Shown here: positions 10,198 through 47,410 of the stretch, in pieces | Layout of the letters: each line of letters begins with the position of its first letter | Position numbering within the stretch: position 1 is the stretch's first letter | DNA from: Collinsella tanakaei | GTDB taxonomy: Bacteria; Actinomycetota; Coriobacteriia; Coriobacteriales; Coriobacteriaceae | Direction: 5' to 3' | NCBI RefSeq assembly: GCF_016900375.1 | Contig: NZ_JACJKB010000007.1 | Location: 62,001-126,000 of the forward strand | DNA: 64,000 bases | Notes under the pieces: model-generated | What the model saw: the letters and a program-made list of their open reading frames with translations, nothing else | The model's database searches: none | Told to the model about the DNA's origin: nothing | Position numbers and translations under genes: made by a program

Positions 10198-12654
10198 TTA
10201 GGCGCGCACCTCGCCGCCCGTGGCCTTGCAGACCTTCGTGACCAGCTTGGAGTGGGCCTTCTCGACTTCCTCGGAGGTCAGCGTGTGGTCGTCGGAACGG
10301 TACGTCAGCGCGAACGCCATCGACTTCTTGCCTTCGCCCACGCGAACCGGATCGCGGTAGACGTCGAACAGGCGCACGCCAGCGAGCAGCTTACCGCCCG
10401 CGCTCGTGATACGACGCTCCAGATCCTCGCAGGTCACGCTCTCGTCGACCACGATGGCCAGATCGTGCTCAACGCTCGGGAAGCTCGAGAACTCGTGGTA
10501 GGCCTCCTGGTTGCGCGCACCGGAGAGCAGCGCGTCGAAGTTGAGCTCAAAGGCCACCACGGGCAGATCGATATCCATGGCCTCGCGCGCGTCGGGGTGG
10601 ATCTCGCCGACCCATCCGAGCACCGTGCCGCCCGAGAGAACCTCGGCGCCGCGGCCGGGCTGCAGGAAGGCGTAACCCTCGCCCTCGGCGGGACGGAAGC
10701 GCACCTTCTCGATGCGCAGCTGGGCCAGCAGCTCCTCAACCACGCCCTTGCCGTCGAAGAAGCGCAGCGGACGGTACTTCTGCAGCCAGGTGATGTCGTC
10801 CATGGCGCCAGACAGCACGCCGGCGAGGCTCATACGCTCCTTGGGCTTGCTCGCGTTCTCGCGGCCGTGGAACAGGCGCCCGATCTCGTACAGCTGCACG
10901 TTGGCGGTGCCGTGGGCCTCGTTGTAGGCAACGGAGCGCAGCAGGCCCGGGATGAGCGAGCGGCGCATCTCGGTCTGGTCGGCGATCAGCGGATCCATGA
11001 GGACCACCGGGCATCCGCGACCCTCCTCGGACATGCCGATCTTCTTCAGGTCGTCCGCCGCGGCGAAGCCGAAGGTCGTCGTCTCGTTGAGGCCGCAAGC
11101 ACGAAGGATCTGACCGATCTTGCGGGTGAGATGCTGGTCGCGGGTCAGGCCGCCGATGTGGTTCTTGGCCGCCGGGATGGTCGCCTCGACACGATCCATG
11201 CCCCACAGGCGCAGAATCTCCTCGATGAGGTCGATCTCGCGCGGTAGGTCGGGGCGGAAGCTCGGGGTCACAACGTGGAACGTGTCGTCATCGGCGCGCG
11301 AGACCGTGCAGCCGAGGCGCGTGAGCGCGCGCTCGACGAAGTCGGCCTCGATATCGGCGCCGCAGATGGCGTGCACGCGCGAGAGGCGCAGCGTCAGCTC
11401 GGGCTGCTGCTTCGGCGCAGGATACAGGTCCACGTAGCCGGGTGCGACCTCGCCGCCGGCGAGCTCCTCGATAAGGGCGCAAGTGATGTTGGCGACATCC
11501 ACGCAGCCGGTCTCGTCAACCTGGCGCTCAAAACGGATGGAGGCGTCGGAGATGAGCGACAGGTCGCGGCTCGTGTGCGAGGTGCGGCCGGCGTCGAAGC
11601 AGGCGCTCTCGACCATGACGTCGACGGTGTCGTCCTCGATCTCGGAATCCATGCCGCCCATGACGCCCGCCAGCGCAACAGGGCGCTCGCCGTCGGTGAT
11701 GAGCGTCATGCCCGCGGAGAGCGTGCGCTCGACGCCGTCGAGGGTCGTGAAGGCCTCGCCCTCCTGCGCGGCGCGGACCACGACGGAGCGCTTGCCGTCG
11801 CGGGCGGCGAAGGTGGAGAGGTCGAAGGCGTGCAGCGGCTGGCCGGTAAGCATCATCACGTAGTTGGTGATGTCGACGATGTTGTTGTGCGGACGGATGC
11901 CGAGCGCGGTCAGGCGCTGGACCATCCAGTCGGGGCTCGGGCCGACCTTCACGTTGCGCACGATGCGCGCGACATACCGGTCGCACATGCCCTCGCCGTC
12001 GAAGGTGACCGTGAGCTCATCGGCGGTCGGAGTGCCCTTCTCCTCCTTGATCTGAGGGTAATCCACGTGGTAATCGCGGTCGTAGATGGCTCCGACCTCA
12101 CGGGCGATACCCACCATGGAGAGGCAGTCGGGACGGTTGGGCGTGATCTCGCAGTCGAGCACCGTCTCGGAAGTGCCCTGATACTGCGCGAACGGCACGC
12201 CCACCGGCGCGTCGGGCGGCAGGATCATGATGCCCGAGTGATCGCCGGAGAGCCCCAGCTCGCGCGCGGAGCAGTTCATGCCGCAGGACAGAACGCCGCG
12301 CAACTTGGACTTCTTGATCTTGATGCCGCCGGGCAGCTCGGCGCCGATCATGGCGGTCACGATGTGGTCGCCCTCGTTGAAGTTCTGGGCGCCGCAGACG
12401 ATCTGCAGCGGCTCGGGATTGCCATCCTCGCCCAGATTGAACTGGCCCACATCGACCTTGGTGACCCACATGTGGTCGGAGTCGGGATGGGGCTCCTTGG
12501 ACAGCACCTGAGCGGTGACGACGTGGTCGAACGACTCGCCCACGGTATCGACGGACTCCACCTCGGTGCCCGTGCGGATGAACTCTGCGACCAGCTCTGC
12601 CGGGTCGCTCGGCAGCTCGATCATCTCGCCGAGCCAACTATACGGAACGCGCAT
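10198..12654 (-). CDS. pheT: Phenylalanyl-tRNA synthetase beta subunit
   Basis: An 818-residue beta chain of the (alpha-beta)2 enzyme that charges tRNA-Phe. In order: N-terminal MRVPYSWLGEM, an EMAP-like tRNA-binding domain (~40-150, with GMNCSARELGLSGDHSGIMIL), the B3/B4 editing domain, the B5 domain and the C-terminal ferredoxin-fold anticodon-binding domain (YHEFSSFPSVEHDLAIVVDE to the end). The start at 12654 follows AGGAG; an in-frame extension upstream is rejected. It follows pheS on the same strand after an unusually long 308-nt gap holding two copies of a structured repeat. It is presumably co-expressed from the pheS T-box. Confidence 0.98.
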   Translation of the reverse strand: MRVPYSWLGEMIELPSDPAELVAEFIRTGTEVESVDTVGESFDHVVTAQVLSKEPHPDSDHMWVTKVDVGQFNLGEDGNPEPLQIVCGAQNFNEGDHIVTAMIGAELPGGIKIKKSKLRGVLSCGMNCSARELGLSGDHSGIMILPPDAPVGVPFAQYQGTSETVLDCEITPNRPDCLSMVGIAREVGAIYDRDYHVDYPQIKEEKGTPTADELTVTFDGEGMCDRYVARIVRNVKVGPSPDWMVQRLTALGIRPHNNIVDITNYVMMLTGQPLHAFDLSTFAARDGKRSVVVRAAQEGEAFTTLDGVERTLSAGMTLITDGERPVALAGVMGGMDSEIEDDTVDVMVESACFDAGRTSHTSRDLSLISDASIRFERQVDETGCVDVANITCALIEELAGGEVAPGYVDLYPAPKQQPELTLRLSRVHAICGADIEADFVERALTRLGCTVSRADDDTFHVVTPSFRPDLPREIDLIEEILRLWGMDRVEATIPAAKNHIGGLTRDQHLTRKIGQILRACGLNETTTFGFAAADDLKKIGMSEEGRGCPVVLMDPLIADQTEMRRSLIPGLLRSVAYNEAHGTANVQLYEIGRLFHGRENASKPKERMSLAGVLSGAMDDITWLQKYRPLRFFDGKGVVEELLAQLRIEKVRFRPAEGEGYAFLQPGRGAEVLSGGTVLGWVGEIHPDAREAMDIDLPVVAFELNFDALLSGARNQEAYHEFSSFPSVEHDLAIVVDESVTCEDLERRITSAGGKLLAGVRLFDVYRDPVRVGEGKKSMAFALTYRSDDHTLTSEEVEKAHSKLVTKVCKATGGEVRA

Positions 12655-12708
12655 CGCGTCTTCTCCTCTCGATATGTGAAATAACCCTAGGGGTTTTCTT
12701 ACATCTGA

Positions 12709-12828
12709 CAACGGAGACGGCTTTTCCAGGTGCCCGAGATTGGGGTGAAAGAGGAGGGTGCACGCCTAGCGTGCGGCGCCCAACGATTGAACCCCAAGGT
12801 CGGGTGCCTGGGAAAGCCGCAGGGATCA
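12709..12828 (+). ncRNA. Structured tandem element, copy A (candidate RNA or palindromic repeat)
   Basis: This 120-nt element sits in the pheS-pheT gap. A 20-bp outer stem (12718-12737 with 12800-12819) is continuous on the plus strand if three G.U pairs are allowed; on the minus strand these become A.C mismatches. Inside are a 7-bp stem TTGGGGT/ACCCCAA and a third stem GGGTGC/GCGCCC. It is followed 10 nt later by a second copy with compensatory changes. The element therefore probably acts as RNA from the strand opposite to pheST, or is a mobile palindromic repeat. Its promoter is unknown. Confidence 0.6.
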
Positions 12829-12837
12829 ATGGACCTG

Positions 12838-12956
12838 CAACGGAGACGGGTTTTCCAGGTGCCGCAGATTGCCCTGAAAGAGGAGGGCATAGGCCTTCGC
12901 GCCATGCCCGACGATTGAAGGGCAAGGTGCGGTGCCTGGGAAACCCGCGGGGATCA
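12838..12956 (+). ncRNA. Structured tandem element, copy B (candidate RNA or palindromic repeat)
   Basis: Second copy, 119 nt. It starts with the same CAACGGAGACGG and ends with the same GGGATCA as copy A. The outer stem begins CGGGTTTTCC where A has CGGCTTTTCC, and its partner changes to AAACCCG. The middle stem is TTGCCCT/AGGGCAA instead of TTGGGGT/ACCCCAA, and the inner stem is GGGCAT/ATGCCC. Loops such as GAAAGAGGAGGG and CGATTGA are conserved. Confidence 0.6.
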
Positions 12957-12962
12957 GTCAAC

Positions 12963-14039
12963 CTAGAACTGGTTCAAGAAGCGCATATCACCCGTCATGA
13001 GCGTGCGCAGGTCGGGCAGGTCGTAGCGCAGCGCCGCCACGCGCTCGACGCCGATGCCGAAGGCGAAGCCGCTGTAGCGCTCAGGGTCGATGCCGCAGTT
13101 GACGAGCACGTTGGGGTCGACCATGCCGCAGCCCAGGATCTCGATCCAACCGGAGTGCTTGCAGAAGCTGCAGCCCTCGCCGTGGCACACGCCGCAGCTC
13201 ACGTCGACCTCGCAGGAGGGCTCGGTGAACGGGAAGAAGTGCGGGCGGTAGCGCGTCTTGCGCTCGGAGCCGAACATGCACTTCACGAAGTAATCGAGCG
13301 TGCCCTTGAGGTCGCCGAAGGTGATGCCCTCGTCGACCACGAGGCCCTCGACCTGGTTGAACTGGGGCAGGTGGCAGGCGTCGGGGGTGTCGGGGCGATA
13401 CACCGTGCCCGGCGCGATCATGTAGATGGGCGGCTTCTGGCTCTCCATGATGTGCACCTGCACGCCAGAGGTCTGGGTGCGCAGCAGGACGTCGGACTCG
13501 CCGTGCGCGTGCGCCTCGGAGTGGGCGCAGGTGCCCGGCGCGTTGTCCACGACGTAGAACGTGTCGCGCGCGCTGCGGCTCGGGTGATCCATGGGGGCAT
13601 TCAGCGCGGTGAAGTTGTAGTAGGTCGTCTCCACGTGCGGACCGTCCTCGACCGTGTAGCCGATGCCGCAGAAGACGTCCTCCATCTCCTCGATGATCTG
13701 GTTGATGAGGTGCTGATGGCCGATCTTGGGGCGGGCGCCCGGCAGGGTGACGTCCACAGCCTCGGTGGCCATGAGATCGCGCATGGCGGCGCGCTTGAGA
13801 GCGCCGCCGCGGCTCTCGACGAGGCTCTCGGCAAGACGGCGCAGCTCGTTGGCGCGCTTACCCAGAACGGGGCGCTCCTCGGGGGCGACCTTGCCCATCA
13901 TGTGCATCACCGAGGTGATCTCGCCCTTGCGGCCGAGCAGCGCCACGCGCGCCTGCTCGAGCGCCTCGGGCGTGGCTGCGCCCTCGATCATCTCCTTGGC
14001 CTTGGCTTCAAGCTGGTCAAGGTCTTCGATCAGACTCAT
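12963..14039 (-). CDS. pheS: Phenylalanyl-tRNA synthetase alpha subunit
   Basis: A 358-residue catalytic alpha subunit (class II synthetase). It has an N-terminal coiled coil (residues 1-90), motif 2 around TVYRPDTPDACHLPQFNQVEG, the Phe-pocket region FFPFTEPSCEVDVSC and motif 3 GFAFGIGVERVAALRYDLPDLR near the C-terminus. A Cys-rich insertion (CGVCHGEGCSFCKHSGW) is normal for bacterial PheS. GAAGGGA precedes the ATG. It is transcribed from a T-box leader directly upstream and followed by the structured repeats and pheT. Confidence 0.98.
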   Translation of the reverse strand: MSLIEDLDQLEAKAKEMIEGAATPEALEQARVALLGRKGEITSVMHMMGKVAPEERPVLGKRANELRRLAESLVESRGGALKRAAMRDLMATEAVDVTLPGARPKIGHQHLINQIIEEMEDVFCGIGYTVEDGPHVETTYYNFTALNAPMDHPSRSARDTFYVVDNAPGTCAHSEAHAHGESDVLLRTQTSGVQVHIMESQKPPIYMIAPGTVYRPDTPDACHLPQFNQVEGLVVDEGITFGDLKGTLDYFVKCMFGSERKTRYRPHFFPFTEPSCEVDVSCGVCHGEGCSFCKHSGWIEILGCGMVDPNVLVNCGIDPERYSGFAFGIGVERVAALRYDLPDLRTLMTGDMRFLNQF

Positions 14040-30650: not shown

Positions 30651-30791
30651 TTCGGGACGGAGACGCCCTGGGGCATCCGCGGCGGCCTGGCCTCTCTGGG
30701 GACGTAGCCGGAAGGCGCCACCGGGGTTAGCAAACCCCGGTGGCGCCTTCCGGCTACGTCCCCAGAGAGGCCAGGCCGCCGCGGATGCCCC
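30651..30791 (+). repeat. Long palindromic repeat, family I, copy 2 (59-bp perfect stem)
   Basis: The flank CTTTCGGGACGGAGACG (30650-30666) is followed by two perfectly complementary 59-nt arms (30670-30728 and 30733-30791) with a 4-nt loop. The arms contain CTCTCTGGGGACGTAGCCGG. It lies between the convergent ends of the YitT and GntR genes, so it can terminate both. Confidence 0.93.
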
Positions 30792-40923: not shown

Positions 40924-40954
40924 CGACAAGTTTGTACCTGGCACCAACTTGTCG
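40924..40954. repeat. Hairpin family II, copy 2
   Basis: CGACAAGTT and AACTTGTCG form a 9-bp stem, then a T.C mismatch, a GT/AC pair and the loop ACCTGGC. It lies 1 nt after the YitT stop codon and probably acts as a terminator. Confidence 0.75.
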
Positions 40955-47379: not shown

Positions 47380-47410
47380 CGACAAGATTGGACCTGGCCC
47401 CATCTTGTCG
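47380..47410. repeat. Hairpin family II, copy 4
   Basis: CGACAAGAT and ATCTTGTCG form a 9-bp stem, with the same T.C mismatch as at 40924, a GG/CC pair and the loop ACCTGGC. It abuts the stop codon of the next minus-strand gene (47411-47413). Confidence 0.8.

Follow-up and report, generated by a model that had tools for sequence, protein, structure and literature searches.

What are the two structured repeats that occupy the gap between pheS and pheT in Collinsella tanakaei? Both genes lie in the window, that is, the whole stretch of 64,000 nucleotides that was analysed. A preliminary description made from the sequence alone had noticed two tandem structured copies in a pheS-pheT gap of 308 nt. 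It offered three readings, namely a structured antisense RNA as the main one, a regulator of pheT, and a mobile palindromic repeat. The gap length and the two copies were confirmed. The sequence is as described there, but the scale was underestimated. It is the mobile palindromic repeat that the analysis supports. With a probability of about 0.68, the pheST copies belong to a new Coriobacteriales family of mobile palindromic repeats that are small, do not code for protein and are non-autonomous, and whose general kind is that of RPE and ERIC. As far as seen, the family is confined to this order.

How palindromes of the ERIC and RPE types move is an open question (PMC2229807). The present family gives unusually sharp constraints on mobility: one better-folding strand, docking at stop codons, opposition to the replication fork, and more than 20 copies in genomes lacking Y1 genes. 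Its hosts are common gut bacteria (Collinsella, Enorma, Slackia, and Eggerthellaceae-like genomes). Besides, the element sits inside operons (pheST and rpl genes) and adds peptides to RecQ and KsgA.

The repeat pair between pheS and pheT

The features of the region are given in Table 1. The two copies form a tandem of a ~129-nt unit, with a spacing of 128-129 nt and an identity of about 80%. The tail of copy 2, GGGATCAGTCAAC, touches the complement of the pheS stop codon (12963-12965). The + strand of each copy folds into one long interrupted hairpin of -73 and -73.6 kcal/mol, respectively (z about -8), and none of 200 shuffles was equally stable. The - strand folds less well, at -56.9 and -60.3 kcal/mol. 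The palindrome next to copy 1 is of the kind that flanks a RAYT-like gene elsewhere in this genome (C24:87278). An intrinsic terminator was rejected as an explanation of the element, because no terminator with a T-tract was found in the window region and copies sit within operons.

Table 1. Features of the pheS-pheT region, in window positions.
Feature	Position	Strand	Remarks
pheT	10198..12654	-	Pfam-confirmed; downstream of the copies, transcribed in the pheS direction
REP-type palindrome GTGAAATAACCCTAGGGGTTTTCTTACA	12676..12703		separate from the element; lies between copy 1 and pheT
Copy 1	12709..12837	+	type A apical stem; leader CAACGGAGA 12709-12717, hairpin 12718-12819, tail 12820-12837
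Copy 2	12838..12962 (as tandem unit, 12838-12966)	+	type B apical stem; leader 12838-12846, hairpin 12847-12947
pheS	12963..14039	-	Pfam-confirmed; its stop lies directly against the copy 2 tail

Structure, covariation and strand preference

The hairpin is maintained by compensatory change. The paired stem changes first seen between the two window copies are real and recur in 32 aligned copies from many genomes. In a structure of 32 pairs, 95.5% of the cells of this alignment are standard pairs, and changes on both sides were found in 24 of the 32 pairs. The covariation score was 0.436, compared with 0.151 in shuffles and at most 0.096 with slid partners; 0 of 500 shuffles were comparable. For the divergent Eggerthellaceae-like copies, the score was 0.633 against 0.208 in shuffles, with an alignment fitted to the model. 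The segments first taken as unpaired are largely tandem 5'-GA/5'-GA mismatches. Some copies swap one GA/GA for G-C and C-G pairs (GAAAGAGGAG..CGATTGA versus GAAAGCCGAG..GGCTTGA). A coding function of the + strand was rejected because the apical-stem length differs between the types, which breaks any frame.

The + strand was more stable in all of the 137 distinct copies (84/84 and 53/53; the seed set, 32/32, overlaps the first group). This comparison is free of any alignment, and RNA and DNA parameters gave the same result. The recurring G.U pairs of the preliminary description also proved real (alignment columns 21-109, 27-103, and 28-102). Outside these three fixed positions, no excess of G.U was present in the unfitted alignment (G.U 10, A.C 14), whereas G.U exceeded A.C in the model-fitted alignments (57 vs 28 and 85 vs 19). 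The same preference would be seen with a single strand of DNA when folded. The folding preference of the + strand is real but does not alone imply RNA.

These results bear directly on an independent structured antisense RNA. The strong covariation, the consistent excess of + strand stability, the G.U pairs and the tandem G.A mismatches all agree with such an RNA, and the strand preference that it had been based on stands. A search restricted to the sigma-70 consensus revealed no promoter-like site in the window region, and upstream of the element no conserved sequence was found beyond the leader of ~9 nt. In addition, the flanking genes usually run the opposite way on both sides, and the lack of a G.U excess in the unfitted alignment also speaks against it. 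No meaningful match was obtained with the Rfam 15 covariance models at gathering or permissive thresholds, including Collinsella-1 (RF01700), the motif that the preliminary description had suggested checking. A known Rfam RNA family was rejected on this absence. Taken together, an independent antisense RNA is considered very improbable. As a side remark, RNA-discovery pipelines could easily mistake the element for a riboregulator. No description of it was found in the open-access literature, and the candidate tables of PMC8040213 may contain it. The element is thus apparently undescribed, as far as open-access literature is concerned.

Copy number and distribution

In its own genome (G000, 2.48 Mb), a DNA search gave 24 matches. 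The covariance model gave 36 matches, which correspond to about 31 loci after removal of reverse-strand echoes. The DNA search found the element in 41 of the 45 genomes of the genus. Covariance-model matches in the Coriobacteriia sample came from 114 of 298 genomes, which belong to 35 of the 125 genera. All of these matches are within Coriobacteriales, except one weak match in G064 (E = 8e-6). No match outside Coriobacteriales appeared in a phylum sample of 246 genomes. An exact scan of 84,980 species with a core pattern, which represents one common sub-type only, returned 45 stretches, all from Coriobacteriales (Collinsella, Enorma, Slackia, and unnamed Coriobacteriaceae). Carriage by phages or plasmids was rejected: the viral contigs and phage records searched gave no match, and the plasmid set gave a single one, a 0.9-Mb Collinsella record.

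Tandem arrays alternate the apical types A and B, as in L070, L068, L061, and the window pair. The order is A-B in the window pair and in a pair on contig 7, B-A in a pair on contig 18, and B-A-B at contig 55:24594-24917. The members of the window pair are 91% and 97% identical to those of the contig 7 pair, which exceeds the identity within the window pair itself. This likeness would fit a move or a conversion of the dimer as a whole.

Site occupancy and copies inside genes

The presence of the element at a given site varies among relatives. It occupies 22 of 30 pheST gaps, always antisense and adjoining the pheS stop. The eight gaps without it include short ones of 63 nt (three genomes) and 12 nt (one genome). 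Where Atopobiaceae-like genomes carry just one or two copies, the pheS stop is again one of the sites. The copies at pheST fall into more than one clade, which means that the site was filled or converted repeatedly. A regulator specific to pheT was rejected as a general explanation, since the element also follows dozens of unrelated genes, as well as tRNAs and rnpB. A dedicated pheT switch or antisense RNA is unlikely. At pheST the element is most likely a passenger, neutral for the most part, that sits in the 3' region of pheS.

Copies were also found inside genes. In G107, one in-frame copy lies in RecQ between the zinc-binding and RQC domains (L199:802-2847) and another lies within the methylase domain of KsgA (L200:1490-2533). 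Both enlarge their proteins by about 40-50 residues. Only these two were counted as in-gene copies because they have Pfam support; the long ORFs enclosing copies at L187, L195, and L208 look like spurious antisense frames and were rejected. The P12 loop of the RNase P RNA is occupied by the element in G290 (L262); G201, of the same genus, has a short hairpin there. A copy of G002 (L256) begins a few bases after rnpB ends, at a place where an apparent intrinsic terminator is seen in the own genome. Copies adjoin tRNA genes in G283 and G260. No target-site duplication or 5'TA3' ends were seen at the pheST and rnpB sites, whose flanks have diverged, and no fully clean pair of sites before and after insertion was found.

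The option of a mobile palindromic repeat fits this picture well. Like repeats of the RPE and ERIC kind, the element falls within a length of about 100-200 bp, is multi-copy, dispersed and non-coding, and it forms a long stable stem-loop. It is present in tandem arrays, has occupied and empty sites in relatives, and lies in frame in protein genes and within RNase P RNA.

Docking behind stop codons and orientation

Read in the direction of the mRNA, the element follows stop codons and takes two forms. The Collinsella form has its tail in contact with the stop or a few bases away from it. In the Eggerthellaceae form, which is found in Collinsella too, a second small hairpin comes after the stop, and then CGACGCTGCG, the large hairpin, and CTCGCTGAC. 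The small hairpin is typically GTTCCG...CGGAAC, and its arms vary between copies yet stay paired. In some copies, the stop codon itself is the loop of the small hairpin. Between co-directional genes, 46 of 48 copies are antisense and 2 are sense. When the small hairpin is allowed for, 35 of the 46 antisense copies lie at most 6 nt from the stop, against 3.1 expected with random placement in the gap. At convergent gene pairs, the tail side of the element is near a stop in all 11 cases. The strand that folds better runs opposite to the gene whose stop codon precedes the element. Gene calls outside the window came from a home-made codon-usage caller. A preference for TAG stops was rejected, with 14 of 27 docked stops in Eggerthellaceae-like genomes against 57 of 124 in the background.

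The better-folding strand is also opposite to the replication fork, nearly always in Eggerthellaceae-like genomes (69/73) and in 87 of 107 cases in Collinsella genomes. Here, dnaA was taken as the origin and the terminus as opposite to it. In the regions sampled, genes are co-oriented with the fork at 71-84% in Eggerthellaceae-like genomes and at 54% in one Collinsella genome, so that neither the gene rule nor the fork rule fully reduces to the other. The fork bias in Eggerthellaceae-like genomes exceeds the prediction from 80% gene co-orientation at p about 0.001, with copies that are not fully independent. The fixed orientation together with the docking at stop codons suggests targeted, strand-specific spreading.

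The main rival to a mobile repeat takes its argument from the same positions. As a cis-acting 3'-UTR element, of the sort reported for ERIC in Yersinia, the hairpin on the mRNA strand behind the stop would protect or cut the message or insulate the translation of an operon neighbour. Docking a few bases from the stop, an orientation fixed relative to the gene, and the pheST copy found in many genomes of two families agree with such a role. So do the copies between operon genes, for instance rplA/rplK, nan, and suf genes. In another Coriobacteriales family (L268, G213 contig 8), copies are located directly behind putative rplA and rplK of one ribosomal-protein operon. On the other hand, in no copy is the better-folding strand that of the mRNA, the pheST copy is absent from close relatives, and copies also lie in frame in coding genes and inside RNase P RNA. 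The orientation in Eggerthellaceae-like genomes is also better explained by the fork than by gene co-orientation alone. This alternative is judged unlikely.

Search for a mobilising enzyme

If the element is a mobile repeat, a MITE of a Y1 transposase (IS200/IS605 or RAYT), comparable to REPINs, comes to mind. The replication-strand bias and the paired hairpins of the Eggerthellaceae-like copies are consistent with this origin. Moreover, genomes of the class that have the element tend to have Y1 genes as well, with both present in 84 genomes (Fisher p about 1e-12, phylogeny ignored). A REP/RAYT system or an IS200/IS605 MITE is expected to have a cognate Y1 transposase flanked by the element and Y1 genes in copy-rich genomes. 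The first was not found, and several copy-rich genomes lack the second. Each of the four RAYT-like Y1 genes of the own genome (C24:87278, C7:14094, C1:228348, and C1:180469) is flanked by its own palindrome type and not by the element, and the flanks of 16 Y1 loci contained no copy. No Y1_Tnp match was obtained in 18 sampled genomes with at least five copies. Among these, the complete genomes G107, G111, and G163 carry more than 20 copies each. A Y1/RAYT mobiliser is not supported, and a Y1 MITE is regarded as quite improbable. A transposase between closely spaced copies was rejected because the intervening genes are ordinary metabolic or ribosomal ones. No mobilising enzyme was found among the Y1 genes and the genes between close copies.

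Other palindromes lie beside copies of the element and elsewhere in the window. A GACAAG...CTTGTC palindrome, the type that flanks the RAYT-like gene at C7:14094, adjoins several other copies of the element, and two palindromes of this type are present in the window at 40925-40953 and 47381-47409. A long near-perfect palindrome at window 30680-30790 gave an Rfam MIR7486 match on both strands, which is surely spurious. Within its arms lies the GGGGACGTAGCC repeat, which also occurs next to the RAYT-like gene at C1:180469, and the palindrome is probably a REPIN-like pair.

A possible mode of spreading

For the mobile repeat preferred here, spreading would need the + strand to be exposed as a folded single strand, most likely of DNA. 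A putative protein would recognise the folded strand and join the element to the 3' ends of genes. Tentatively, we propose that a folded single DNA strand is moved and docked specifically at gene 3' ends against the fork. The machinery would work by recombination or copying and be neither a Y1 transposase nor a known integron, although we hold this specific scheme to be unlikely. If it is true, gut Coriobacteriales would have, in effect, dispersed attC-like sites behind their housekeeping genes.

Comparison with known systems

RPEs are imperfect palindromes of about 105-146 bp that are found between genes, as in-frame inserts of conserved protein genes, and within RNase P RNA (PMC2229807). In-frame fusions with protein genes and an insertion in RNase P RNA are common to both families. 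The likeness is one of description and not of sequence comparison, and RPEs belong to another order and have another sequence. Unlike RPE, the Coriobacteriales element shows strict docking behind stops, one orientation, a replication-strand bias, and strong covariation. ERIC (IRU) of enterobacteria is a dispersed palindrome of about 127 bp, often at gene 3' ends; its transcript is a long hairpin, and its orientation matters for effects on mRNA (PMC2229807, PMC10969869). ERIC also has 5'TA3' ends and target duplications (PMC2229807). These were not seen in the Coriobacteriales element, and no sequence relation is apparent; the two are likened by description. YPAL (RU-2) of Yersinia, 168 bp long, has targets that span or adjoin dyad symmetry, with target duplications reported (PMC2229807). 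Two findings resemble this choice of target, namely the one insertion into the P12 hairpin loop of an RNase P RNA and the stop codons that, in some copies, lie in the loop of the small hairpin. The host, the length, and the target duplications, none of which were seen for the Coriobacteriales element, set YPAL apart.

REPs are 20-40 bp long (PMC3733652). REPs and REPINs with their RAYT (Y1) genes share with the element the nature of extragenic palindromes, and REP-type repeats lie right beside several of its copies. However, the element is ~130-165 nt long, is not located beside RAYT genes, and persists without Y1 genes. A further likeness is found in the attC sites of integrons. They are imperfect palindromes right behind a stop codon, their structure is kept more than their sequence, and recombination uses their folded strand, the one complementary to the gene. 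By analogy alone, the Coriobacteriales element resembles them as a stop-adjacent imperfect palindrome with the folded strand opposite to the gene and with structure kept above sequence. It differs from attC in that its conserved letters are internal and its copies are scattered behind housekeeping genes rather than lined up in cassette arrays.
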